Below are positions 12,536 through 24,124 of a stretch of DNA of 64,000 nucleotides, one piece after another. Numbering within the stretch: position 1 is the first letter of the stretch; each line of letters starts with the position of its first letter. Source of the DNA: Rothia koreensis (GTDB lineage Bacteria > Actinomycetota > Actinomycetes > Actinomycetales > Micrococcaceae). Made by a program: the position numbers and the translations under genes. The notes beneath the pieces are model-generated. The model was given only the letters and a program-made list of their open reading frames with translations, was not told where the DNA came from and searched no databases. The DNA lies in assembly GCF_004136575.1 (NCBI RefSeq), contig NZ_NOIQ01000001.1:62001-126000 (forward strand), written 5' to 3'.

Positions 12536-12862
12536 ATGGCAGTAGGATCCAAGGATCTCTCCATCGACCAGCTCGCCGAACTGGACAACGGGGCTCTCAC
12601 CGAGAAGCTGCGTTCGTCCAAGGAGGAGCTGTTCAACCTCCGTTTCCAGAAGGCCACCGGGCAGCTCCAGAATGCGGGCCGCTTCAAGGCTGTCAAGCGC
12701 GATATCGCGCGCATCTACACGGTGTTGCGCGAACGCGAGCTGGGCATCCGACCCGAGGCCGAGGGCAACGCCCAGGCTTCTGACAAGAAGGCCGACAAGA
12801 AGGCTGCAAAGGCAGCGAAGAAGGCCGATACGGCTAGCGCTACCGAAGGTGATGCCAAGTGA
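12536..12862 (+). CDS. rpmC: 50S ribosomal protein L29, extended
   Basis: L29 lies beside L23 at the tunnel exit. The family core occupies residues 1-75, with [33 protein letters not shown] and [17 protein letters not shown] lysine- and alanine-rich tail of about 30 residues follows, giving 108 residues against the usual 60-75. Such tails are known in actinobacteria. The ATG at 12536 sits three bases after rplP. The stop overlaps the GTG of rpsQ by four bases. Confidence 0.96.
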
Positions 12863-13131
12863 GTGAACAGAAGACGGAAGAGCGCAATCTCCGCAAGACC
12901 CGTCGTGGATACGTCGTCTCGGACAAGATGGACAAGACCATCGTCGTCGAGGTCGAGGACCACGTGACCCACGGTCTCTACGGCAAGGTCATGCGCCGCA
13001 GCCACAAGGTCAAGGTGCACGACGAGCAGAACACCGCCGGAATCGGCGACCTCGTTCGGATCATGGAGACCCGCCCGATGTCAGCCAACAAGCGTTGGCG
13101 CATCGTGGACATCGTCGAGCGCGCCAAGTAA
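12859..13131 (+). CDS. rpsQ: 30S ribosomal protein S17
   Basis: S17 is a primary 16S rRNA-binding protein. The product is 90 residues with the family block [18 protein letters not shown] and the C-terminal [19 protein letters not shown]. The GTG start overlaps the rpmC stop. In the standard order rplN would follow directly. Here a strong terminator comes 26 bp later and rplN is displaced by 11 kb. Confidence 0.97.
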
Positions 13132-13157
13132 GGCTCGCTGGGCGTCCCGCTCCTGAG

Positions 13158-13190
13158 AACCCCCTCCCGCTTCGCGCGGGAGGGGGTTTT
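13158..13190 (+). terminator. Rho-independent terminator of the S10 operon
   Basis: A perfect 13-bp stem (13158-13170 with 13176-13188) closes a TTCGC loop and leads into TTTTGCGTTT. It cleanly ends the S10 operon after rpsQ. Confidence 0.93.
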
Positions 13191-13291
13191 TGCGTTTAAG
13201 AAGACCAGGTGGGTTCTTCGGACCGGGGCACGACGGCGATTGCGCCGTCCTGCTCAACCGCATCGCAACGTCTGCCCATGCCAGGTACGCA

Positions 13292-13359: not shown

Positions 13360-14394
13360 ATGGATCAACACGTGCGCCGGCGTGATGGCAATCCACGGAC
13401 GTGGTTGAGGACGATCATTGGCCTCGTGGCCGCCGCGGCCATCCTGTGTGGCCTCACCGGATGCGGCGTCTTTGCTTCCGGAGGGTCCACCGAGAACGCC
13501 TCGGAGCGCGTGGTCAAGGACATCGACGACGCCGAAGTGCGCGTCCCAGACAACCCGAGTCGCGTCGTCGCGCTCTCGGAGCCCACCCTGGACGCCGCAC
13601 TTGCGCTCGGAGTGACCCCCGTGGGCACCGTCTCCGGCCGAGGACAGAATTCCGTTCCGGGCTACCTCGCGGACAAGGCCAAGGACATTCCCTTGGTCGG
13701 AGGCATCGGGGACCTGGATTACGAGAAAATCTCCAGCCTCGAGCCCGACCTGATCATCGTGGATGGGACGAGCGTCAACAACAGGCCCGACGTTCTGGAG
13801 ATCCTCCGGCAGATCGCCCCCTTGGTTTTCTGCGGGTACGCAGGCGGTCCATGGGAACTGAATTTCGACACCACGGCCCGCGCGCTCAACCTGGAGGCGA
13901 AGGGCGAAGAGGTCAAGTCGGCTTTCCGGGACAAGGTCAGCAAGGGCAGAGCCCAACTCGCGCCCACGTACGGGGACAAGACCTTTTCGATCGTGCGGTG
14001 GCAGGGGAGCGGACCTTCCCTGATCCTCAAGGAGCTTCCCGCGGGGCAGGTTTTGGAGGGGCTCGGTCTGAAGCGGCCGCAATCCCAGGACCGAGAAGGG
14101 AGAGGGCATTCGGACCCGGTCTCCTTGGAGAACCTCTCGACCATCGACGCGGACTACATGTTCTTCGGAACGCTCGGCGGCGCAAGCCAGGCGAACCCGC
14201 ATTCGGACTCTACGTCCGATCGAGAGGGTGCGGCTCAGGCGCTTGAGACGGCCGAGGAGACGTCGGGCTTCACGGATCTGTCCGCCTACAAGAACCACCA
14301 CATCATCACCGTCGATGGGTCCCGTTGGACCTCAACCGGTGGCCCCTTGCTGCTGAACGGCATCGTCGACGACATCCTGGCCGAGCTCGCCTGA
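13360..14394 (+). CDS. Iron-siderophore ABC transporter substrate-binding lipoprotein (FepB/FhuD-like)
   Basis: This should be the membrane-tethered receptor that passes an iron complex to the permeases encoded downstream. The 344-residue protein has a basic N-terminus, a hydrophobic stretch and a lipobox LTGC with Cys35 as the lipidated residue. Then comes the two-lobe binding fold of the iron-complex family: NPSRVVALSEPTLDAALALG at the start of lobe 1, and KISSLEPDLIIVDG before the hinge. Start at ATG 13360 is chosen because it gives the lipoprotein signal; the frame is open further upstream. It is the first gene of a six-gene operon. The ligand, siderophore or haem, cannot be read from the sequence. 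Confidence 0.88.
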   Translation: MDQHVRRRDGNPRTWLRTIIGLVAAAAILCGLTGCGVFASGGSTENASERVVKDIDDAEVRVPDNPSRVVALSEPTLDAALALGVTPVGTVSGRGQNSVPGYLADKAKDIPLVGGIGDLDYEKISSLEPDLIIVDGTSVNNRPDVLEILRQIAPLVFCGYAGGPWELNFDTTARALNLEAKGEEVKSAFRDKVSKGRAQLAPTYGDKTFSIVRWQGSGPSLILKELPAGQVLEGLGLKRPQSQDREGRGHSDPVSLENLSTIDADYMFFGTLGGASQANPHSDSTSDREGAAQALETAEETSGFTDLSAYKNHHIITVDGSRWTSTGGPLLLNGIVDDILAELA

Positions 14395-14465
14395 GCGACG
14401 CCATCCGCCGGGGCCCACAGTCTCCGGCGCCCTTCCTTCCAGTGACCGAAGAAACTCCATAACCC

Positions 14466-16805
14466 ATGATGAACATCGGAATCTCTCGTACCAGCGCGCG
14501 ATCTCGCACCCACATCAGACGGCTCCTCTCGCTCCTCCTCGCCGCGGTTCTCGCCCTGGCCGCGTGCCTGATTCTGCCCAGCGCCTCGGCCGACGACGCA
14601 TCGAACAGGCAAACCGTCACAACCAACGAGAAGACCGCCGAAGTCTCCGGGCCCCTCACGGTCGACGTCGCCGGCACGATTCATGTCGAGGGCCGGGACT
14701 GGAAGAATTCCCTCGCCGGGGGAGCGCGGATCGCCGTGAAATACGACAAAGGCACCGTGGCCGTGAACGGCGAGAGCGTGGTCACCCAATTCGAGGCCAG
14801 GACCGACGGGACCTTCTCTGCAGAGCTTCCCGTCCCCACCCAAGCAAACTCGGACAAGCCGTGGTTGCCCGGAACCAAGCACACGATTCATTTCCTGAGC
14901 GGAAGCCTCAAAGAGGGGGACCTGCCTCGCAATGCGGTTCTGAAGGTGTCAGTGGCTGGACAAGCTGAGTCGCCCGCACAGACGCCGTCGTGGGTTTCGG
15001 CGACGTCGACGGTGAACTCGGGTTCGCCCGCGACCATCGACGTCGCCCCGTTCACCACCGGGAAAGACGCTGCCCTCCACCTGATCGGCAAGGGATGGAA
15101 GACGGCGGACGGGAGGTCCGGCTCCATCGTCTCGATCAAGGTCAACTACCAGACGCCGACCGGGAAAATCGACCAATACGCCAGGGAAGACCAAGTCATC
15201 AGCGATCATTTGGCTTCTCTTGGAAAATCCAAGGATCCGACGTCCTGGGTCCTGCTCGTCCCGAAGGGCACGGCCACGCAGGATCCCGAGCACGGCTTGT
15301 ACACGATCGACCAGACCGGTTCCTTCGACATCACGGTCAAGGCGCCCGAAGAGCTGCGCCATGGCAAGCCGGGGCAATACGTGACCATCACGGCGCAGTC
15401 GGGGCGGAACCTGGAAGGGGACGTGCAGCGTCGGGCAGTCACCGACCCGATACCGGTCGATGGAGAGGCAGCGCAACCCATTCAGGACATTTCGGAGGTC
15501 CGCTGCAGTACTCAGGCGCCCCAACCGACCGCACGGGTGGAGAACCAGTTCATGCAGCGGGGCGACAAGCTTCACCTGGTCGGCGAAGGGTGGTGCAACC
15601 CTGGGGGCAGGACCGGCGCCCCGAAGGTTGCGGTGAAGCTCGACGAAGGCGAAATCTCCCATCCGGACACGGCGCTCCACTCCAACAGGAGCATCTGGGC
15701 ACTCGTCGACCCTGATCCGGCCACGGGTGTTCTCGATGCCTGGATCGAGTTGCCGGACGGTACCACCACAACCTCCGTGCCCGAGTTCCCCGAGGGCGCC
15801 CACAGCCTGCGCCTCCTTTCGGGCTCCCTTCGCCATGGTGATCTTTCCATGACCTTCGGCGGTCGCGGCACCCTGGACTTCACCGTGGGCGAGTACCGCC
15901 CCAATGGAATGGCACCGGCCCTGGGCCTCGATGAGCTCACGGAGGATTCGCGTCACGATGTCCGGGTCAACCGCGACGGCCCGCGGATCACGGTGGAGGT
16001 TCCCGGAGCACGACCTGGGCAATGGGTCAGGGCAACGCCCTACGCCGAGGCTGCGCCTCGCAACCAGTGGGGAAGCGGATGGGTGCGCCTGGACGACCAC
16101 CGTTCGTTGAGCTATGACCTGCCCGATGACGCGGCGGCAGGAGACTACCGGCTCGTTGTCCAGAACGGGGAGCGCGAGGACTTCGGGACGTTGCTGGGTT
16201 GGGGTCAGCTGACGATTCCCGAGAACGCACGCGGTTCGCGCGCGGAGGTCGGCCCTGCCCACGGCCGCGGCGCCCAGGGAACGTCCGCGCGCCGGTCTGC
16301 GGCGCATGCGGCACCGGCGTCGGGCCTCAACACCGGATCGGGCCAGACCAGCGCTGCCCGTGCGGTTCCCGCGAGCCCGGCGGCCGTGCGGGAGATGACG
16401 AGTCTGGGCCGGGTCCGGAGCCGGGCCCCGCACCGTGCCCGCGTTCTCCGCGCTCCGGGCGTACCTGTCTATCCCTGGGTGCGCGCGGCCCGCCACCCAG
16501 TCCATCGAGTGGTGGCTTCGCTCCGGGACGCGGAGAAGGACGCCCACCATCACGCACGTCCCCTAGCCTCGCCGTCCGCCCGGAGTCAGGCTCTGGATTC
16601 GGAGTCCGACTCTCAGGGGACGAATGCGGGACGGGAGGAAGCAAAGGTCACCCTGAAGATCCTGACCTGGAACAACGTGTTGCTCGCGCTTGCGGGCGCC
16701 TTGCTCCTGGCCATGGTCCTGTACCTGACCCACAAGCCGCACCAGGCGGCGTCACAGGCTTCCGAGGCTTCGGCGACCCCAGAGGCAGAGGCTTCGGACG
16801 ACTAA
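14466..16805 (+). CDS. Membrane-anchored surface protein with three or four repeated extracellular domains
   Basis: I do not recognise a named family. The 779-residue protein has a signal peptide (about 1-42, ending ASA; an alternative lipobox LAAC precedes it). Three repeats of a beta-rich domain (about 60-165, 185-335, 345-480) share the pattern GxGW, IAVKxDxG and LSGSLxxGD, and a fourth, weaker unit spans about 490-590. An Arg/Ala/His-rich linker of about 130 residues follows, then one membrane helix (NNVLLALAGALLLAMVLYL) and a short acidic tail. The first repeat is close to a domain in the beta-propeller protein at 20938-23658. Position between the binding lipoprotein and the permeases points to ligand capture at the cell surface. 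That role is inference. Confidence 0.85.
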   Translation: MMNIGISRTSARSRTHIRRLLSLLLAAVLALAACLILPSASADDASNRQTVTTNEKTAEVSGPLTVDVAGTIHVEGRDWKNSLAGGARIAVKYDKGTVAVNGESVVTQFEARTDGTFSAELPVPTQANSDKPWLPGTKHTIHFLSGSLKEGDLPRNAVLKVSVAGQAESPAQTPSWVSATSTVNSGSPATIDVAPFTTGKDAALHLIGKGWKTADGRSGSIVSIKVNYQTPTGKIDQYAREDQVISDHLASLGKSKDPTSWVLLVPKGTATQDPEHGLYTIDQTGSFDITVKAPEELRHGKPGQYVTITAQSGRNLEGDVQRRAVTDPIPVDGEAAQPIQDISEVRCSTQAPQPTARVENQFMQRGDKLHLVGEGWCNPGGRTGAPKVAVKLDEGEISHPDTALHSNRSIWALVDPDPATGVLDAWIELPDGTTTTSVPEFPEGAHSLRLLSGSLRHGDLSMTFGGRGTLDFTVGEYRPNGMAPALGLDELTEDSRHDVRVNRDGPRITVEVPGARPGQWVRATPYAEAAPRNQWGSGWVRLDDHRSLSYDLPDDAAAGDYRLVVQNGEREDFGTLLGWGQLTIPENARGSRAEVGPAHGRGAQGTSARRSAAHAAPASGLNTGSGQTSAARAVPASPAAVREMTSLGRVRSRAPHRARVLRAPGVPVYPWVRAARHPVHRVVASLRDAEKDAHHHARPLASPSARSQALDSESDSQGTNAGREEAKVTLKILTWNNVLLALAGALLLAMVLYLTHKPHQAASQASEASATPEAEASDD

Positions 16806-16824
16806 GGAAGGAACCGAAAGCATT

Positions 16825-17829
16825 ATGAACACCTTGTACTTCCGGCGAGCCCTCATGGCACTGATAGCCGCGGTGGTGGCGTTTCTGGTGGGATTCAGTG
16901 GCGTCTCCGCGCTCCCACCGGGCGGCGCCAAGGGAAGCAAGCCAGGCACCTCCTCTACCGTTTCGCCGGGGACCCTCAGGGCGGGCGACACTCTTCATTT
17001 CACCCTGAGCGGCTTCCCCCGAAACGAACAGGTCTTTATCAAGATCGACAACGGAGACGCGTGCCCCAAAGACGCCCGTCAAGGTGCCTGCGTGGTGCAC
17101 CAGCAGAAATCGGATGGGAATGGACACGTGGAGGGTTCGTTCGTCCTGCCCAAAGACCTGAAGGACGGCAAGCATACCCTCCGCTTCCTGGCCACGGAGG
17201 TCATCCCAGGCTTGGGAAGCCAGGGCTTCACCAACCTCAGTCCCGAGTTCACCACCGCGGGCGTCAACCAGAACTCCTCGGGCGGCCAGCGGTACAACGT
17301 CACGTCCGAAGACATCCTCTCCGGAGGGACGCGACAGGATTCCGGCTCCGGTGGAGCCCCGGCGAATCGAGGCAACGGCGGAGGAACGGCCGGGAACGGC
17401 CAGCAGTCGAATGGCGGACAGCCCGGAGGACAAGCTGGGGGATCCGGCGAGAGCGGTCAGGGCGACGAAGCGGTCGAGTACGTCGACGCCGACGGCAACC
17501 CGATTTCCAAGGAGGAATACGACCGGCTGATGGCAGGTTCCTCGGGTGCGGGAGAGGAGTCCGGCTCGGAAGACCAAGCCGCGGAGCACAAGGATGCGGA
17601 GAGCGGAAAGAACGACGGCTCCAAGGGCACGAAGAAGCGCAAGGCCACCGCGAGCCCAGGGGCCAAGGCCAAGAACTCCGGGGACCATGCCGAGAACGCT
17701 TCGGCCGAAAGCGCGAAGGACTCCGCCGGATTCCCCTGGGTCGGCACCATCGCGTTCGTCGTCATGGCCTTGACCGCCGCGACCGTCTGGTATGTCAGGC
17801 ACCGGCGCTCAGGTTCTCAGGAATCCTAG
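16825..17829 (+). CDS. Membrane-anchored surface protein with one beta-rich domain
   Basis: I do not recognise a family. The 334 residues comprise a signal peptide (about 1-29), an Ig-like region (about 40-150) with LSGFPRNEQVFIKIDNGDAC and HTLRFLA, two cysteines 10 residues apart (DAC...GAC), a long Gly/Ser/Asn/Gln-rich stalk, and a C-terminal membrane helix (about 302-325) followed by RHRRSG. The domain pattern loosely echoes the repeats of the preceding gene. The gene starts 19 bp after that one and ends three bases before the first permease, so all are co-transcribed. Probably a second surface component of the uptake system. Confidence 0.82.
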   Translation: MNTLYFRRALMALIAAVVAFLVGFSGVSALPPGGAKGSKPGTSSTVSPGTLRAGDTLHFTLSGFPRNEQVFIKIDNGDACPKDARQGACVVHQQKSDGNGHVEGSFVLPKDLKDGKHTLRFLATEVIPGLGSQGFTNLSPEFTTAGVNQNSSGGQRYNVTSEDILSGGTRQDSGSGGAPANRGNGGGTAGNGQQSNGGQPGGQAGGSGESGQGDEAVEYVDADGNPISKEEYDRLMAGSSGAGEESGSEDQAAEHKDAESGKNDGSKGTKKRKATASPGAKAKNSGDHAENASAESAKDSAGFPWVGTIAFVVMALTAATVWYVRHRRSGSQES

Positions 17830-17832
17830 GCG

Positions 17833-18897
17833 GTGATGCGAGGTGATCACCCCTCCCATCGCGCCGCCGTCGAGATCGAGCCCATGACGGCGTCGGTCGT
17901 GCGGAGGCGGTCGCTGGCCCGAGTCGCGTGGTGCGGACTGTTCGCCGCCTGTGCCGCGGCGGCCGTTCTGGCGTCGTTGCGCTTCGGTTCCAACGGGCTG
18001 TCAGGTTCCGACGTCGTCGAGGTCTTCCGCGGCGCGGGCTCGGCAACGGCTCGAACCATCGTGATGGAACAACGGATACCCCGCACCCTTCTGGGCCTGC
18101 TCTGCGGTGCGGCGCTCGGAGTCGCCGGATCCCTCATGCAGTCGCTGACGCGCAACCCTCTGGCGGAACCAGGGCTGATGGGCGTCAACGCGGGTGCCTC
18201 CGTCGCCGTCGTGCTCTCGGTGGTGCTCTTCGGCCCGCAGAACATCCACGTCTACATGTCGGCGGCGCTCGGAGGAGCGGCCGTGGCCGGCGCCGGGGTC
18301 TTCGTCCTGGGTCGTGGGGAAACGGGGTCAATCGTCCGGCTGGCGCTCGCGGGTGTCGCTCTCTCCGCGGCCCTGGCCGCGGCCAACCAGGCGTTGGTCC
18401 TGTCCAACCGGGACGCCTTCGATGAGTTCCGGCTCTGGGTTGCCGGCTCCCTCGAAGGGCGGGATGTCACGGTCGTGGAGTCGATCGGCCCCATGGTCGC
18501 GGTGGGTTTGGTCTTGGCCGTGGCCATTGCCCCTTCGATCAATGCGTTGGCTCTCGGGGAGGAGTCCGGCGTCGCCCTCGGCGTGCGGCTCGCCAGGACT
18601 CAGACGATCACTCTTGTCTCCGTGGCTCTGCTGACGGGTGCGGCCACCGCGGCGATGGGGCCGGTGGCCTTTGTGGGACTTGCCGTCCCGTTCGTGGTCC
18701 GCCGGGCGGTGGGAAATGACGTCCGCTGGGTCAATGCTGGGTCCCTGCTCCTGGGCCCCGCGTGGTTGCTGGCCGCTGATGTTCTGGCTCGAGTCGTCAT
18801 CGCCCCTGAGGAAACGCAGGTGGGAATCATCGCGACCCTGGCCGGCGGCCCGCTGTTCATGGCGATGATGTCCGGTCGGCAGGTGAGGTCGCTGTGA
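17833..18897 (+). CDS. FecCD-type ABC permease, first subunit (FepD-like)
   Basis: This is an inner-membrane subunit of an iron-complex importer, 354 residues, with the hydrophobic multi-helix pattern of the FecCD/BtuC family. The diagnostic segment NPLAEPGLMGVNAGAS matches the FepD-type subunit, and the C-terminal GPVAFVGLAVPFVVRR matches the family loop that meets the ATPase. GTG 17833 or ATG 17836 directly follows the previous gene. ATG 17884 is an alternative that better matches usual N-termini but lacks a good ribosome-binding site. The stop overlaps the next permease by four bases. Confidence 0.9.
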   Translation: MMRGDHPSHRAAVEIEPMTASVVRRRSLARVAWCGLFAACAAAAVLASLRFGSNGLSGSDVVEVFRGAGSATARTIVMEQRIPRTLLGLLCGAALGVAGSLMQSLTRNPLAEPGLMGVNAGASVAVVLSVVLFGPQNIHVYMSAALGGAAVAGAGVFVLGRGETGSIVRLALAGVALSAALAAANQALVLSNRDAFDEFRLWVAGSLEGRDVTVVESIGPMVAVGLVLAVAIAPSINALALGEESGVALGVRLARTQTITLVSVALLTGAATAAMGPVAFVGLAVPFVVRRAVGNDVRWVNAGSLLLGPAWLLAADVLARVVIAPEETQVGIIATLAGGPLFMAMMSGRQVRSL

Positions 18898-19976
18898 GTG
18901 CCGCAAGGAACCGCTCTGGCGGCGGCAGAGGGCTGTTCCGCAAGGACATGTCGGGCCGATCCGTTGTCTCGATCAGGCGGGTCATCCACGCGGACTTCCC
19001 GGTCCGCCAGCTGGTCGTGCACCTCCTTCTGGCTCTGCTTCTGGCGGCGGTCGCGGGTTGGGCCATGACACAGGGCGAACGAAACCTTGGCCCCTCCGGC
19101 GTCTACGAGGCGCTCATGGGCAGGGGAGACCGTCTCAACGTCTACTTCGTGAACCAAGTCCGGCTGCCCCGGGTGGCCGCGGCGATCGCGGTGGGTGCCG
19201 CGCTGGGTCTTTCCGGTGCGACGTTCCAGATTCTGTCCGGGAACCCCCTGGGCAGCCCCGATGTCATCGGCTTCACTCATGGCGCGGCCACGGGGGCGTT
19301 GCTGCAGATTCTCGTGTTCGACGCCGGCCCGTTCGGCGTCGCGGCAGGAGCGATCCTCGGCGGATTCGGCACGGGCCTCATCATCTACCTGTTGACCCGG
19401 CACACCGGTCTGCGAGGATACCGCCTCGTTCTGATCGGAATAGGCACCGGTGCGACCTTGGGGGCAGTCAACTCACTCCTGGTGGTTCGGGCGTCGTTGA
19501 CGCAGGCGCAGACGGCGGCCTCCTGGCTCGCCGGGTCCCTGAACACCATGAATTGGAGCAAGACGCTCTTGATCGCGTCCGGGCTCCTGATCCTGTCGCC
19601 GGTCCTGATGAAGGCTTCCGGTCCGCTGGCGATGCTCCGGTTCGGGGACCAGCTCGCCGTCGGAAGGGGAGTGCGAGTCAACGCGTGGCGAGTCACGGGC
19701 ATGTTCGTCGGAGTTCTCCTGGTCGGTCTGGCCACGGCGATGACCGGTCCGCTGGCGTTTGTGGCCCTGGCAGCCCCGCACATCGGCAGGAGCCTCACCG
19801 CGTCGCGTGGCGCGGGACTCACGACCGCGGCACTGATGGGCGCGGTCATCGTTCTTTGCTCGGATGTCGCGGGCCAGCACCTTCTCCCCGTTTCGCTCAA
19901 TGCGGGCGTGGTAACCGGCGCTCTGGGCGGGCTGTATCTGGTGTATCTGATCATCGTGGAACGGAGACGAGCGTGA
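18894..19976 (+). CDS. FecCD-type ABC permease, second subunit (FepG-like)
   Basis: The partner membrane subunit, 360 residues, overlaps the preceding permease by four bases and the ATPase gene by four bases. The segment LSGNPLGSPDVIGFTHGAA is characteristic of the FepG-type subunit. The C-terminal GPLAFVALAAPHIGRSL is the family loop near the ATPase contact. The roughly 40-residue N-terminal extension before the first helix is Arg/Gly-rich and unusual; a downstream start is possible, but no better ribosome-binding site is seen. A two-different-permease arrangement is typical of siderophore importers and less so of haem importers. Confidence 0.9.
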   Translation: MSAARNRSGGGRGLFRKDMSGRSVVSIRRVIHADFPVRQLVVHLLLALLLAAVAGWAMTQGERNLGPSGVYEALMGRGDRLNVYFVNQVRLPRVAAAIAVGAALGLSGATFQILSGNPLGSPDVIGFTHGAATGALLQILVFDAGPFGVAAGAILGGFGTGLIIYLLTRHTGLRGYRLVLIGIGTGATLGAVNSLLVVRASLTQAQTAASWLAGSLNTMNWSKTLLIASGLLILSPVLMKASGPLAMLRFGDQLAVGRGVRVNAWRVTGMFVGVLLVGLATAMTGPLAFVALAAPHIGRSLTASRGAGLTTAALMGAVIVLCSDVAGQHLLPVSLNAGVVTGALGGLYLVYLIIVERRRA

Positions 19977-20776
19977 GCAGCATGAACGCACGGGCGAGCA
20001 GATTGCGCGCAGAGGGGATGACCGTGGGCTACGGCCACGACGCCGTGCTCTCGAAACTCGACTTCCAGGTTCCCGACGGCGAGCTGACGGTGATTCTGGG
20101 GCCGAACGCTTGTGGGAAGTCGACCCTGCTCAAATCGTTGTCACGGGTGCTGACCCCATCGGCGGGGAAGATCTTCCTGGACGACGTCGCCATGGAAAAG
20201 AGCCGCACCAAGGACATCGCCCGGGTTCTGGCCATGTTGCCGCAGATTCCGGAGGCTCCCTCGGGGGTGAGCGTCGCCGACGTCGTCGCTCGCGGGCGCT
20301 ACCCGCATCAGTCTCTATTGCGCGCGTGGACCGACGACGACGAACGCGCGTGTGTCGACGCGATGACCGCGGCGAATGTTCTACCGCTCAGGGAACGGTC
20401 GCTGGAAGAGCTCTCCGGCGGTCAACGCCAGAGGGTCTGGATCGCGATGACTCTGGCTCAGGACACGCCCCTGATCCTCCTCGACGAACCCACCACGTAT
20501 CTGGACATCACTCATCAGATCGAGGTGCTCAATCTGACTCGCCGGCTCCACGGGGCCGGCCGCACGATCGTCATGGTTCTCCACGACCTCAACCTCGCGT
20601 TCAGATATGCCACGCGGGTCGTGATGATGCGGGACGGGCGGATCATCTCCGAGGGCAGCCCCCACGAGATCGTGGACGCTGACCTGATCGCCCGGGTGTT
20701 CGACCTCGAGGCCTTGGTGGTGGCCGATCCGGTGACTGGTGCACCCATGGTCGTCCCCGCGGAAAGTACTTTGTAA
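19973..20776 (+). CDS. Iron-siderophore ABC transporter ATP-binding protein (FepC-like)
   Basis: This 267-residue ATPase energises the importer. It has Walker A GPNACGKST (43-51), the signature LSGGQRQRVWIAM and Walker B LILLDEPTTYLDI, followed by the switch histidine in MVLHDLNLA. The DEPTTYLDITHQIEVL stretch is typical of the FepC/FhuC group. GTG 19973 overlaps the permease stop by four bases; ATG 19982 is an alternative. The frame is open far upstream but only as an unrelated frame over the permease gene. It closes the six-gene operon, and two DtxR-like boxes follow within 45 bp. Confidence 0.92.
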   Translation: MSSMNARASRLRAEGMTVGYGHDAVLSKLDFQVPDGELTVILGPNACGKSTLLKSLSRVLTPSAGKIFLDDVAMEKSRTKDIARVLAMLPQIPEAPSGVSVADVVARGRYPHQSLLRAWTDDDERACVDAMTAANVLPLRERSLEELSGGQRQRVWIAMTLAQDTPLILLDEPTTYLDITHQIEVLNLTRRLHGAGRTIVMVLHDLNLAFRYATRVVMMRDGRIISEGSPHEIVDADLIARVFDLEALVVADPVTGAPMVVPAESTL

Positions 20777-20783
20777 CCGATAC

Positions 20784-20822
20784 TAAGGTTACCTTAAATG
20801 CGAGAGTAGGCTACCTTAAGCA
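20784..20822 (+). promoter_or_regulatory. Two tandem DtxR/IdeR-like iron boxes
   Basis: The 12-base motif AGG(T/C)TACCTTAA occurs twice in the same direction, at 20786-20797 and 20808-20819, exactly 22 bp (about two helical turns) apart. Wider windows (20784-20799 and 20806-20821) match the DtxR/IdeR consensus at about 12 and 11 of 16 positions. The first box is also palindromic, TAAGGT-T-ACCTTA. A -10-like TAGGCT (20807-20812) overlaps the second box. The placement, after the ATPase and before the surface-protein gene at 20938, indicates iron-repressed transcription of that gene. Confidence 0.65.
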
Positions 20823-20937
20823 TGTACCAAGGGTCGGCGTTATCACGGTCTGGTTCGACCGCGCGAGTGCGGGTCGCGACCGGACACCGTTACGGCCTCT
20901 GGGCACCATTCGCATTCAGAAAACTATGAGGATCACT

Positions 20938-23658
20938 ATGTTTTCCTACAACAACTTCCGCCCTCGGGGCTTCAAGGTATGGGCGACTGTCTCCGCGGCA
21001 ACGGCCCTGACTTTCGCAGGAACGTTGACCGCGGCTCAGGCCGACGGGGCAATGTCTCCGGCGGCTCCGGCTCACGGCTCTGCTTCGGCAACGTGCGAAT
21101 ACCGCAGTTTTGACGTCCGTGCCGAACAGACCCAAGGTCTGCCAGGGCAGTACCAGCTGGCGTATTCGAAAAAGAACGACGCGCTCTGGGCAACCGGTAC
21201 CGTCCTTGGCGGAGCAAGCACCACGGCCACTCTCGCCAAGATTGATCCGCAGACCATGAAGGTCGAGAAGACCGTTGCTCTGGACACCGTGCCCTACGTT
21301 CCGAAGCACGCGACCGAGCCCGCCGGCGTCCAACTCAAGGGAGCCTTCGGGATCGATGTTGACGATGCGAACAACACCGTATGGGTGACCAATACCGTCG
21401 CGAATGAGGTCACGGTATACGACCAGGCCACCCTGAAGGAGGTCTTCTCCACCTCCAAGCTCTCGCAGGACGAGCGTGCGAAGATCGACTTCGCCCATCC
21501 GCGCGAAGTTCGTGTTGCCGACGGCAAGGCATTCGTGGGCGTTCGTGGTTCCGTGCTGGTCTTCGACACGAAGACTTACGCATTCCTGCAGAAGATCACC
21601 GTGGCCGATGTTGAGGACAAGACCACCGCCGTGATGAATATGTGGGTGGACGAGTCGGAGGGGAGGGCCTACTTCCCGGTGCGTATGAGGGATGAGGTCA
21701 AGATCTATGACCTGAAAGATCTCTCGCAGCCGCTTCAGGTGGTCAAGCTCCACAAGCAGGACCCGGGGGCCAATCTCTACGCATCCGATGTTGTGGTGGA
21801 TCACTCCCTCAACGAAATATACGTTTCGTCCCAGGGCGACAAGGGGAAGAACTCTGGTGTGGGCGTCTATGACAAGACCACGGGCGAGTTCAAGGCGTGG
21901 ATCGATCTTGGTGGAAGGGCGCTGTCTCTGGATGCGGATGAGGACAACGACGTCGTGTACCTCACCGATTTCGATGGCAAGTCTACGGACAAGGGCGTCT
22001 ACGTGATCGACGGCCGTACCCACACGGTTGCGGCCTCCGTCGCCAAGAATTCCTCGGATGCTCCCTTCGGCGTCAACGATGTTGTTGTGACACCCAAGGG
22101 CGTGTTCGCCGTGGACAAGGGCGGGGCATACAAGAACGCGGAGGTTCCCTTCACGATCGATTACCGCACCGGAAAATTCACCACCGCGTCGACGTCCGTC
22201 AAGGGCGTGCAGAACAAAGCCTCTGAGGGTGCACCCGCCGACTGGCAGCCCGCCGAGCCGACCCCGATCAACGCTGACACTCTCGTCAAATTGACCGCGT
22301 CGCCGACTGGAACCGTCAAGGGCCAGACGAAGACTGTGACGGGCTCCGAAGCGAACGTCAAGACGGTCGAGTCCAGGCAGGATGCAGAGGCCAAGGTCAC
22401 GGGTGCCACCGTGGTCTCCGAGGGTCAGGCCATCAAGGTGTCGGGGACGGGGTGGAAATACCCGAAGGGGGCTGAAGGGTCCACGATCGCCGTCAAGTAC
22501 GACCGCGGCAAGGTCTCCATCAACGGCGATGCAGTGATTGGCACCGTGGAGGCAGACGCCGAAGGCAATTGGTCTATCGAGCTACCTTACCCGACCGCCG
22601 ACAATTCCACCGTCAAGGACGCGTCCTGGGGCCCGGGAACCTCGCACACGCTCTCCTTCCTCTCGGGCTCCATCAAGGAGGGTGATACGTCCCGTGGCGC
22701 GAACCTCGACATCACCATCGCCCAGCCGACCTGTGGCGCACCGGAAACGATGCACGTGACCCCAACGAACAGGGACTTCCAGGGATACGGAACACTGGTC
22801 GATTCGAAGGTCGGTGAAATGGCGCCTGCTCCTGCCGACCCGGTGAAGCCGGAACCGATGCCGGCTCCGAGCCCGAGTGAGCCGGTCAAGCAGGAACCGA
22901 TGCCGAACCCGAGCCCGAGCGAGCCGGTCAAGCAGGAGCCGATGCCGAACCCGAGCCCTAGCGAGCCGGTCAAGCAGGAGCCGATGCCGGCTCCGGCGTC
23001 CTCGACCGACGGAGATTCGAAGGGTTCTGGCGCAGGAAACACCGAGCAGGACCCCGGGAAGAGGGCTTCCGAGGCCGGTGGCCAGGCCCAGGGCCAGCCG
23101 GGCGCCGGGCAGCAGGGCGCCGGGCAGCAGGGTCCCCAGGCCGGTGGCCAGGGGCAGACCCAGGTTCAGCAGGACCCCGGGCAGAAGACCCCCGAGGCAG
23201 GTGGCCAGGGGCAGACCCAGGGTCAGCAGGGCTCCACCACGAAGTCCACCGGGGCGGCCCCCGGTGAGACCGGAGATGGTGCCAGCACGAAGGAAGGCGG
23301 ATCGTCCGCCGCCACGGGAGATCCTGCAAGCGCCGGCGATGACGGCCAGAAGGCTCCGGAGAACAACGCTCCCGAGAATTCTGGCGATCACGGTAACGCC
23401 GGTGCCGCCGCAAGCGGCAACACCATGAACAACAACGGCGGGGCGTCGGGCACCTCCGGCTCCCCGAGCCAGAGCGGGACGAACGGGTCGGGAACGGCTT
23501 CCCAAACCTCGACCCCTTCGAACAACTCCGCGCCTGCCGCGCAGTCCAGCCTGGCCCACACCGGTGCCGGGAAGCTGATGTGGGTTGCCGGATTGGGTGC
23601 CGCGGCACTGGCCACCGGTGTTGCGGTGGTGGCGCTCCGACGCAAGAAGGCCCACTGA
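20938..23658 (+). CDS. Sortase-anchored beta-propeller surface protein
   Basis: The 906-residue protein has a signal peptide ending near AQA (residue 35) and a YncE-like seven-bladed propeller region (about 50-420, with repeats such as IDVDDANNTVWVTN and DVVVDHSLNEIYVSS). Next is one copy (about 495-600) of the domain shared with the surface protein at 14466, including IAVKYDRGKVSING and FLSGSIKEGD, then a Pro-rich repeat and a long Gly/Gln/Ser-rich stalk. The C-terminal sorting signal is LAHTG (23551-23565), a hydrophobic helix and RRKKAH. LAxTG is the motif read by class E sortases. Start ATG 20938 is preferred over 20926 because GAGG lies six bases before it. Transcription is probably iron-repressed through the boxes at 20784-20822. 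The ligand is unknown. Confidence 0.87.
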   Translation: MFSYNNFRPRGFKVWATVSAATALTFAGTLTAAQADGAMSPAAPAHGSASATCEYRSFDVRAEQTQGLPGQYQLAYSKKNDALWATGTVLGGASTTATLAKIDPQTMKVEKTVALDTVPYVPKHATEPAGVQLKGAFGIDVDDANNTVWVTNTVANEVTVYDQATLKEVFSTSKLSQDERAKIDFAHPREVRVADGKAFVGVRGSVLVFDTKTYAFLQKITVADVEDKTTAVMNMWVDESEGRAYFPVRMRDEVKIYDLKDLSQPLQVVKLHKQDPGANLYASDVVVDHSLNEIYVSSQGDKGKNSGVGVYDKTTGEFKAWIDLGGRALSLDADEDNDVVYLTDFDGKSTDKGVYVIDGRTHTVAASVAKNSSDAPFGVNDVVVTPKGVFAVDKGGAYKNAEVPFTIDYRTGKFTTASTSVKGVQNKASEGAPADWQPAEPTPINADTLVKLTASPTGTVKGQTKTVTGSEANVKTVESRQDAEAKVTGATVVSEGQAIKVSGTGWKYPKGAEGSTIAVKYDRGKVSINGDAVIGTVEADAEGNWSIELPYPTADNSTVKDASWGPGTSHTLSFLSGSIKEGDTSRGANLDITIAQPTCGAPETMHVTPTNRDFQGYGTLVDSKVGEMAPAPADPVKPEPMPAPSPSEPVKQEPMPNPSPSEPVKQEPMPNPSPSEPVKQEPMPAPASSTDGDSKGSGAGNTEQDPGKRASEAGGQAQGQPGAGQQGAGQQGPQAGGQGQTQVQQDPGQKTPEAGGQGQTQGQQGSTTKSTGAAPGETGDGASTKEGGSSAATGDPASAGDDGQKAPENNAPENSGDHGNAGAAASGNTMNNNGGASGTSGSPSQSGTNGSGTASQTSTPSNNSAPAAQSSLAHTGAGKLMWVAGLGAAALATGVAVVALRRKKAH
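22867..22990 (+). repeat. 42-bp tandem repeat, three copies, within the surface-protein gene
   Basis: The GAGCCGGTCAAG core recurs at 22879, 22921 and 22963, exactly 42 bp apart, encoding the 14-residue unit SEPVKQEPMPNPSP and variants. It forms a Pro-rich spacer between the shared domain and the Gly/Gln-rich stalk. Copies differ by only a few bases, so copy number may vary without shifting the frame. Confidence 0.85.
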
Positions 23659-23711
23659 TCGGGTGACGCGCTGAGCGCACCCGACGCATCCCTCTGGGCG
23701 TCCTGAGAATC

Positions 23712-23748
23712 GGGGCCGAGGCGGTTCGTGCTGTTCCGCCTCGGCCCC
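23712..23748 (+). terminator. Hairpin terminator of the iron island
   Basis: A perfect 13-bp GC-rich stem (23712-23724 with 23736-23748) with an 11-base loop lies 53 bp after the surface-protein stop. A weak T-containing tail (TCATCGTTTC) follows. Confidence 0.78.
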
Positions 23749-24124
23749 GGTCATCGTTTCGAATGAGGCAGGGGTGACGAACGTCAAGTCCTTCCCGGCG
23801 TCTCGGCTCGTCTGGCCCTGTCCGGGTGGAGTTCGCTTGTGATAGCCTTGAATACTTGTGTGGGCCCACTCGGCCTGCGCTCAACCACGGGTTTTTCGTG
23901 CCAGTGCATAATGCCGCTGTCAACGGGCGCATTCGCCCGCCATCGAAGCGGGACCAGATGTTCCTGGCATGGACGGCCCCAGGCGCAACCGCCAACTTCC
24001 GTTCCTCGAGATACGGCAGACCGGTGCGTCAACCATCCCGAACACAGTGTTCCGCAAGGCCCACGTCGCGTCAGTCGGGCAACCGACGGCGTCGTGAGAA
24101 CCAGCGAGACGACAGGAGTACTCA
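23749..24124 (+). promoter_or_regulatory. spc operon promoter and leader
   Basis: This 376-bp gene-free stretch must hold a new promoter for rplN, because a terminator precedes it. TAGCCT and TACTTG are -10-like segments around 23843-23860, but no convincing -35 was found. In the leader are a 6-bp hairpin with a CATT loop (23934-23949) and a composite hairpin at 24062-24096: four pairs, a U-U mismatch, three pairs, then five pairs closing a GCAA tetraloop. The second ends 15 bases before the GGAG ribosome-binding site of rplN. A regulatory role is inference. Confidence 0.45.

Follow-up and report, generated by a model that had tools for sequence, protein, structure and literature searches.

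Between the ribosomal protein genes rpsQ and rplN, a 64,000-nucleotide stretch of Rothia koreensis DNA carries seven co-directional plus-strand genes for a substrate-binding protein (SBP), two surface proteins (SP1 and SP2), two permeases, an ATPase and a beta-propeller protein (PROP). We refer to the whole stretch as the window; it is G000:C11:62001-126000 in our codes, where G denotes a genome, L a locus and C a contig, and it forms part of a 2.9 Mb genome. SP1 and SP2 travel with the importer across actinobacterial genomes, often beside genes of the enterobactin type, and we therefore suggest that the surface proteins probably catch iron-loaded catechol siderophores in the wall. Our account of the island, which we consider probable, is that it provides a cell-wall module for the capture and hand-over of ferric catecholates.

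An importer operon with three surface proteins

The features discussed below, in window coordinates, are the following.

12859-13131: rpsQ
13155..13191, + strand: terminator hairpin with a T run, 3′ of rpsQ (fold -32.3 kcal/mol, z -6.5)
13360..14394, + strand: SBP, lipoprotein substrate-binding protein of a predicted iron-siderophore importer (Peripla_BP_2, 1.4e-21)
14466..16805, + strand: SP1, surface protein (AlphaFold2 (AF2) model, hydropathy)
16825..17829, + strand: SP2, surface protein (domain homologous to SP1)
17833..18897, + strand: FepD-like permease (FecCD, 1.1e-78)
18894..19976, + strand: FepG-like permease (FecCD, 1e-66)
19982..20776, + strand: FepC/FecE-like ATPase (FecE 5.5e-91, FepC 2.1e-88, both under equivalog cut-offs)
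20784..20818, no strand assigned: three DtxR-type half-sites, candidate operator 5′ of PROP (hexamer cluster)
20926..23658, + strand: PROP, beta-propeller protein with a sortase signal
23709..23751, + strand: strong hairpin 3′ of PROP, probable terminator, no clear T run (folded stretch -44.6 kcal/mol, z -4.9)

The end of rpsQ (13131) and the start of rplN (24125) are separated by 10,993 bp. The first-pass annotation of this DNA had described an importer of the FecCD type and three surface proteins interrupting the ribosomal genes between flanking terminators. The interruption was confirmed; both terminator hairpins are strong, the one after rpsQ with its T run and the one after PROP lacking a clear one, and a simple terminator scan listed neither.

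The genes from SBP to the ATPase look like one operon because their spacings are 71, 19, 3, -4 and 5 bp; PROP follows the ATPase at a distance of 149 bp. SBP carries a lipobox (ILCGLTGC) and the Peripla_BP_2 family (PF01497), and its relatives in the PDB are YfiY, SirA, YclQ, FecB, CeuE and FepB, with YfiY the closest solved structure. Both permeases belong to FecCD (PF01032), and the best NCBIfam matches of the ATPase are FecE and FepC. Judged from their sequences, these four proteins in one operon form a FecCD-type ATP-binding cassette (ABC) importer for an iron compound, as first annotated, and the importer itself is of an ordinary kind. Its components fall short of the NCBIfam equivalog cut-offs for Fep: 41.4 of 205 bits for FepB, 296.2 of 497 for FepC, 270.4 of 428 for FepD (PRK10441.1) and 274.7 of 422 for FepG (PRK10440.1).

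The surface proteins share a domain

Hydropathy places in both SP1 and SP2 an N-terminal hydrophobic signal segment and, ahead of a short tail, a single hydrophobic segment at the C-terminal end. The AF2 model of SP1 (pLDDT 89.3, pTM 0.56) predicts about four beta-sandwich domains, with approximate limits, read from the model, of aa 48-163, 177-332, 355-474 and 500-584, together with a low-complexity stalk and a C-terminal membrane segment near aa 730-757; no sequence in the PDB matched SP1 at E 1. SP2 appears to consist of a signal peptide, one predicted beta-sandwich-type domain (approximately aa 39-130), a low-complexity stalk and a C-terminal membrane segment. Its domain is homologous to SP1 (hhalign 95.2%, 2.8e-8), and a beta-sandwich domain is common to SP1, SP2 and PROP. 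In PROP it lies at about 22348-22725, behind a signal peptide and a predicted seven-blade propeller of the YncE type (about 21094-22314) and ahead of a linker of 42-bp tandem repeats (22836-22989, 3.7 copies) encoding Pro-Ser-Glu-Pro-Val-Lys. PROP scores 47.5 of 400 bits against the YncE equivalog NF052280, below the cut-off. Its sorting signal, LAHTG (aa 876-880, 23551-23565), barely clears TIGR01167 (16.0 bits against a cut-off of 15.9) and reaches 22.2 bits with Microco_LAVTG, for which the cut-off is 27. An LPXTG-type signal, a membrane segment and a basic tail, with three sortases in the genome, mark PROP as a sortase-anchored wall protein.

In searches of Pfam and NCBIfam, no family covered SP1 or SP2, including any with a known non-iron role, which accords with the early suggestion that this might be an undescribed capture system. 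SP2 gave only sub-threshold matches, to the neocarzinostatin-type model NF040680 in 6 of 33 members (best 2.2e-4, 21.1 of 86 bits) and to PF00960 in one member (17.2 of 25 bits). The NEAT and HtaA domains, which the first reading had likewise failed to recognise, gave no match in 35 SP1 and 33 SP2 members (E 0.01) or in 21 PROP members (E 0.001). Alignment of the families revealed near-invariant positions, namely K351 (35/35), W371 (33/35) and H406 (32/35) in SP1, in the numbering of our alignment A4, and K73 (33/33), R120 (33/33) and H117 (30/33) in SP2.

Two side observations concern the propeller proteins. Four of the 21 PROP members (L045, L046, L048 and L057, from G001, which is R. aeria, and G006) contain Pfam SLH domains and appear by eye to end in SLH-like modules that replace the sorting signal. 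Other propeller proteins, in frames of 1,036-1,075 aa with two propeller matches each, were found at L058-L061 (from G012, R. mucilaginosa, and from G013, G014 and G027), loci with no match to the importer queries of the window.

SP1 and SP2 accompany one clade of binding proteins

Among the 35 genomes of the genus in our collection (Rothia in the wide sense), 18 have an orthologue of SBP, and SP1-type and PROP-type matches occur in exactly these 18, a count made without correction for phylogeny; in G031, which is 65% complete, PROP was seen only at the domain level. Beyond the genus, an SBP-alignment scan of the genome collection (described as holding 84,980 species genomes) yielded 96 relatives. 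We retained the best 80 loci and divided them by SBP score into an SP type (at least 390; 50 loci) and a sister type (below 390; 30 loci, L127-L130 and L132-L157). SP1, SP2 and PROP were sought in all 80 with profiles built from Rothia, a search that required 60 bits of SP1 and SP2 and may have overlooked distant members. SP1 is present in 48 of the 50 SP-type loci, the two lacking it being L080 and, at a contig end, L131. SP2 is present in 45; it is lacking in L086, L094, L105, L108 and L131, whose contigs stop within 2.4 kb downstream. The sister-type loci (22/30 Streptomyces) have Fes in 29 of 30 cases, SP1 in none and SP2 in one (L139, 67 bits). SP1 and SP2 are thus nearly exclusive to one SBP clade: a tree of 81 rows splits the two types at 100/99, with the bootstrap unsettled at 0.987. 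The SP and noSP labels of this tree are the score classes (cut 390), and they match the SP1/SP2 neighbours except at L080, which has no SP1, and at contig ends. The nearest named SBP to that of the window is from Kocuria sp. 36.

The SP-type loci bear the names Rothia, Corynebacterium, Nocardioides, Nesterenkonia, Microbacterium, Leucobacter, Pseudoclavibacter and others, and SP1 lies upstream rather than downstream of SBP in L098, L104, L108, L116 and L124. In a class-level sample of 316 genomes, of which 18 have SBP, matches to the SP2 profile came from five and to the SP1 profile from two, every one of which has SBP (SP2-SBP Fisher p 3e-7, on few positives); in G000 and G262, SP2 itself lies near SBP. 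The expectation that the surface proteins would be tied to the importer therefore held for SP1 and SP2, which do not occur widely without it. It held only in part for PROP, which has unlinked paralogues and belongs to a general YncE type of propeller that is common.

Enterobactin-type genes point to a probable catecholate cargo

At the importer locus, enterobactin-type genes occur in 14 of the 18 orthologue genomes, contig-split loci included. Fes and EntE are on the SBP contig in 11 (G001, G004, G006, G012, G013, G014, G016, G019, G027, G028 and G033), the enterobactin-type genes are split between contigs in G010 and G015, and G031 has EntA, EntB, EntC and a phosphopantetheinyl transferase (PPTase). 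The remaining four, namely G000 (the window genome), G022, G024 and G025, carry EntE and Fes elsewhere in the genome. In R. nasimurium (L085, L087, L088) and Candidatus R. avicola (L082), genes of the PPTase, EntC, EntA and EntB types lie toward rpsQ, and those stretches that are long enough show Fes-, EntE- and EntF-type genes beyond the ATPase. The latter three types are also present in R. kristinae (L040) and G028 (L037). Across the SP-type loci, Fes is found in 20/50 and catecholate or non-ribosomal peptide synthetase (NRPS) genes in 20/50; outside the genus the counts within 10 kb are 13/38 and 11/38, with four of these 11 depending on a weak NRPS match. As to the gene names, the isochorismate synthase scores above its NCBIfam cut-off; those of the esterase, the dihydroxybenzoate (DHB)-AMP ligase, the NRPS and the DHB dehydrogenase are best NCBIfam matches under the equivalog cut-offs. 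The EntB-type protein matches general hydrolase models only, and the PPTase has no NCBIfam match.

The relatives thus show a linkage like that of Fep, with enterobactin-type synthesis and an enterochelin esterase nearby. Because such genes stand at the locus in most relatives within the genus and in several outside it, we consider it very likely, as judged from gene content, that the cargo is a ferric catecholate. The "iron compound" of the first-pass annotation can be refined in this sense for the importer; its capture by the surface proteins we can only infer. R. mucilaginosa ATCC 25296 is reported to produce enterobactin (PMC7190385), and we saw the locus in another strain of that species (L083). 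The ribosomal location is not new, since a 2026 paper describes some Rothia enterobactin clusters as flanked by ribosomal protein genes (PMC13347742).

The catecholate genes of the window genome lie on contig C42 (L071:4671-18693, L158), in a cluster where EntA-, EntB-, EntC-, EntE- and EntF-type genes adjoin those for a tandem ABC exporter of 1209 aa, an esterase and a glycosyltransferase of the 450act type (below cut-off). This set is reminiscent of the salmochelin genes iroB, iroC and iroD. Relatives of EntA, EntB, EntE, EntF and the esterase stand in a similar order in G022 and G024.

DtxR-like sites in the relatives

Sites for DtxR were scored against a 19-mer consensus with a threshold of 14/19. 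Across 49 loci of relatives (L078-L126), 33 of the 56 sites scoring at least 14/19 fall in the 4.4% of the DNA near the starts of SBP, PROP and EntA/B/C, a fraction that includes the upstream regions of EntA, EntB and EntC; 200 shuffled half-site controls placed a mean of 0.57 sites there, with a maximum of 14. At least one DtxR-like site occurs in 25/49 loci, and in several relatives such sites lie upstream of PROP. In the 64-kb window no 19-mer reaches 14/19, the best being 13/19 at 20801. Of the four half-sites (T(A/T)AGGT/ACCT(A/T)A) in the 64 kb, three lie at 20784-20818, 5′ of PROP, a clustering of about 2.5e-6 for four random points in a test picked after the sites had been seen; this block is only partly conserved in G024 and G025. 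The two iron boxes first read before PROP thus stand as a cluster of half-sites and not as a full box of at least 14/19. The sites in the relatives argue for iron regulation of the system, at which the half-sites of the window hint.

The rpsQ-rplN site in the genus

The interval in the window is not a matter of chance, because the gap between rpsQ and rplN is 384-520 bp in 14 of the 15 genus genomes that lack an SBP orthologue and have both genes on one contig. It measures 3.7-26.8 kb in the 15 genomes that possess an orthologue and whose rpsQ and rplN likewise share a contig. Of the 18 orthologue genomes, 11 have the importer operon at this site (G010, G015 and G031 being seen from the rpsQ side only); it lies away from the site in seven (G001, G006, G012, G013, G014, G027 and G033), all of which retain propeller matches between rpsQ and rplN. 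Presence is patchy, the negatives G011, G009 and G021 ranking by rplN identity between the positives G022 and G010. The exception among the negatives is G029, with a gap of 4.3 kb that holds an esterase and an EntE gene and no orthologous SBP.

Three further genomes or fragments deserve mention. The esterase and EntE-type gene of G029 (L074:12043-15043) stand without importer or surface proteins and may be an island remnant, as may an EntE fragment with one stop codon 5′ of rplN on the same contig in G034 (G034:C2:207-1163). In G024, where the gap is 26.8 kb, the interval from rpsQ to SBP contains another importer of the FecCD type that has a separate binding protein (L069:3689-7757).

A proposed model for capture at the wall, and its alternatives

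Based on these results we propose that an importer for ferric catecholates of the enterobactin type, regulated by iron, is encoded on the island together with a surface module of its own. Fixed to the wall by sortase, PROP would capture the ferric siderophore outside the cell; SP1 and SP2, whose C-terminal helices tether them to the membrane, would pass it on or dock it to SBP, and the FecCD permeases and the ATPase would carry it inside. A hydrolase of the enterochelin-esterase type, encoded beside the operon in many relatives and on another contig in the window genome, would then free the iron. The first-pass annotation had likewise suggested a cell-wall relay that captures an iron compound. 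We think it fairly likely that the surface proteins take part in ligand capture or transfer; that they form a true relay is a more tentative proposition, a little short of even, and ligand binding by the three proteins, the direction in which the ligand moves and control by iron in the strain of the window are what we infer.

Several observations weigh against this account. The sister importers of Streptomyces do without SP1 and SP2, and in G033 (L080) SP2 is present with no SP1 gene beside SBP. The SP2 domain is not confined to SP-type loci: besides L139, weaker SP2-like matches (23-52 bits) occur near sister-type SBP genes in L128, L130 and L138, and G098, G113 and G157 encode a larger protein in which an SP2-type domain recurs, at a distance of 11-22 kb from an SBP of the weaker kind. 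These last genomes suggest that the domain accompanies catecholate-type binding proteins even without SP1 and SP2 as such. Since SBP, the permeases and the ATPase score below the Fep equivalogs and the nearest SBP structure is YfiY, the ligand cannot be named from sequence alone. The catecholate genes of the window genome are not linked to the island and come with an SBP-permease-ATPase set of their own on C42, so that a different catecholate or a xenosiderophore could be what is imported here. No catecholate genes lie within 10 kb in 30 of the 50 SP-type loci, some of them cut by contig ends, and 4 of the 20 loci with catecholate or NRPS genes (L113, L117, L120, L124) rest on an NRPS match of 100-141 bits. 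Taken as full DtxR boxes, the half-sites of the window are weak, and the conserved residues of PROP are partly common to E. coli YncE.

The proteins with repeated SP2-like domains are from other actinobacterial families (G098:C4:63529-66387, G113:C269:77259-78941 and G157:C37:47463-48533).

Two alternatives, each of which we regard as unlikely though worth keeping in view, would retain the importer and change the part played by the surface proteins. In one, the importer serves catecholates and SP1 and SP2 are structural, spanning the wall or holding the SBP-permease complex with no ligand contact. The best fold matches of the beta-sandwich domain are generic, with no ligand-binding relative among the matches listed, and the domain could be a mere spacer; low-complexity stalks, a single membrane segment and the lack of any covering family would suit such a role. 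Against it, a spacer would perhaps not need the near-invariant polar and aromatic residues of SP1 and SP2, and the domain recurs in the propeller protein. In the other, of similar standing, PROP is an adhesin or S-layer-like neighbour and the system consists of SP1, SP2 and the importer alone. Only 24 of the 50 SP-type loci have PROP within 10 kb of the importer, unlinked paralogues are many (11 PROP matches in G001) and four of 21 members have SLH domains; yet within the genus PROP matches are limited to the 18 importer genomes, PROP carries the SP1 domain, and DtxR-like sites precede it in several relatives.

A surface module for siderophore release, or for retention in the wall as a private store, would fit the biosynthesis genes co-located in 20 of the 50 SP-type loci, but SP1 and SP2 stand inside the importer operon and the other 30 loci show no such genes within 10 kb, some of them being cut by contig ends, which makes this reading improbable. 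Slightly less probable still is Isd- or HtaA-like capture of haem or host-protein iron together with a haem importer, for which the layout of anchored proteins, a common domain and a FecCD-type importer, resembling Isd and Hta/Hmu, would speak, and against which stand the missing NEAT and HtaA matches and the linkage to enterobactin-type synthesis and enterochelin esterase.

Comparison with known systems

To our knowledge, wall-anchored relays are known for haem only. If the surface proteins do bind ferric catecholates, the island would add a step of siderophore capture at the level of the wall, carried out by two protein families outside Pfam and NCBIfam, and would bear on the keeping or theft of siderophores among commensals. 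We put at somewhat under even the chance that a Gram-positive wall relay of this make, with an anchored propeller, two membrane-anchored proteins of undescribed families and one binding domain common to them, extends from Rothia to Corynebacterium, Nocardioides and Microbacterium. No description of the surface module was found in the literature searched.

The importer of the island is like Fep with Fes in E. coli and in the sister loci, where an SBP, FecCD permeases and a Fes-type esterase likewise stand with enterobactin-type genes nearby; E. coli also has an ATPase, and in the sister loci none of this type reaches 200 bits. It differs in that the SBP of the window falls in a separate clade from the sister loci, in scoring below the Fep equivalog cut-offs, and in the SP1 and SP2 that those loci (0/30 and 1/30) do without. 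The anchored-repeat ABC transporters (TIGR03769 and TIGR03771-TIGR03773) also combine an actinobacterial importer with surface-anchored repeat proteins. The ATPase of the window, in contrast, scores 135.9 bits against the TIGR03771 cut-off of 268.8, and no anchored-repeat model was among the matches of 35 SP1 members.

Surface propellers are known from Bacteroides. XusB, which acts with XusA, is likewise a seven-blade propeller anchored at the cell surface, where it serves a transporter of ferric catecholates (PMC13142918). XusB belongs to DUF4374 and is a lipoprotein that sits on a TonB-dependent receptor, whereas PROP is of the YncE type, has a sortase signal and stands beside an ABC importer; DUF4374 is absent from the 14 families listed for the 21 PROP members. 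BtuG, also a surface seven-blade propeller (PMC10404256), shows a weak sequence match to PROP (PDB 8bmx 4.5e-4, 8blw 9.5e-8), and differs in its cobalamin ligand, its lipoprotein anchor and its TonB-dependent partner. Gram-positive siderophore receptors are described in a review as membrane lipoproteins, for example HtsA and SirA (PMC7139808).

In layout, the island resembles Isd, with its NEAT domains, and the Hta/Cht haem systems of C. diphtheriae (PMC12494546, PMC4143258). In these, several surface proteins with one common domain serve a FecCD-type importer. Those systems carry haem and use NEAT and HtaA domains, neither of which the proteins of the window show. Should the binding of ferric catecholates hold, the Rothia island would be a siderophore counterpart to the Isd and Hta haem relays.

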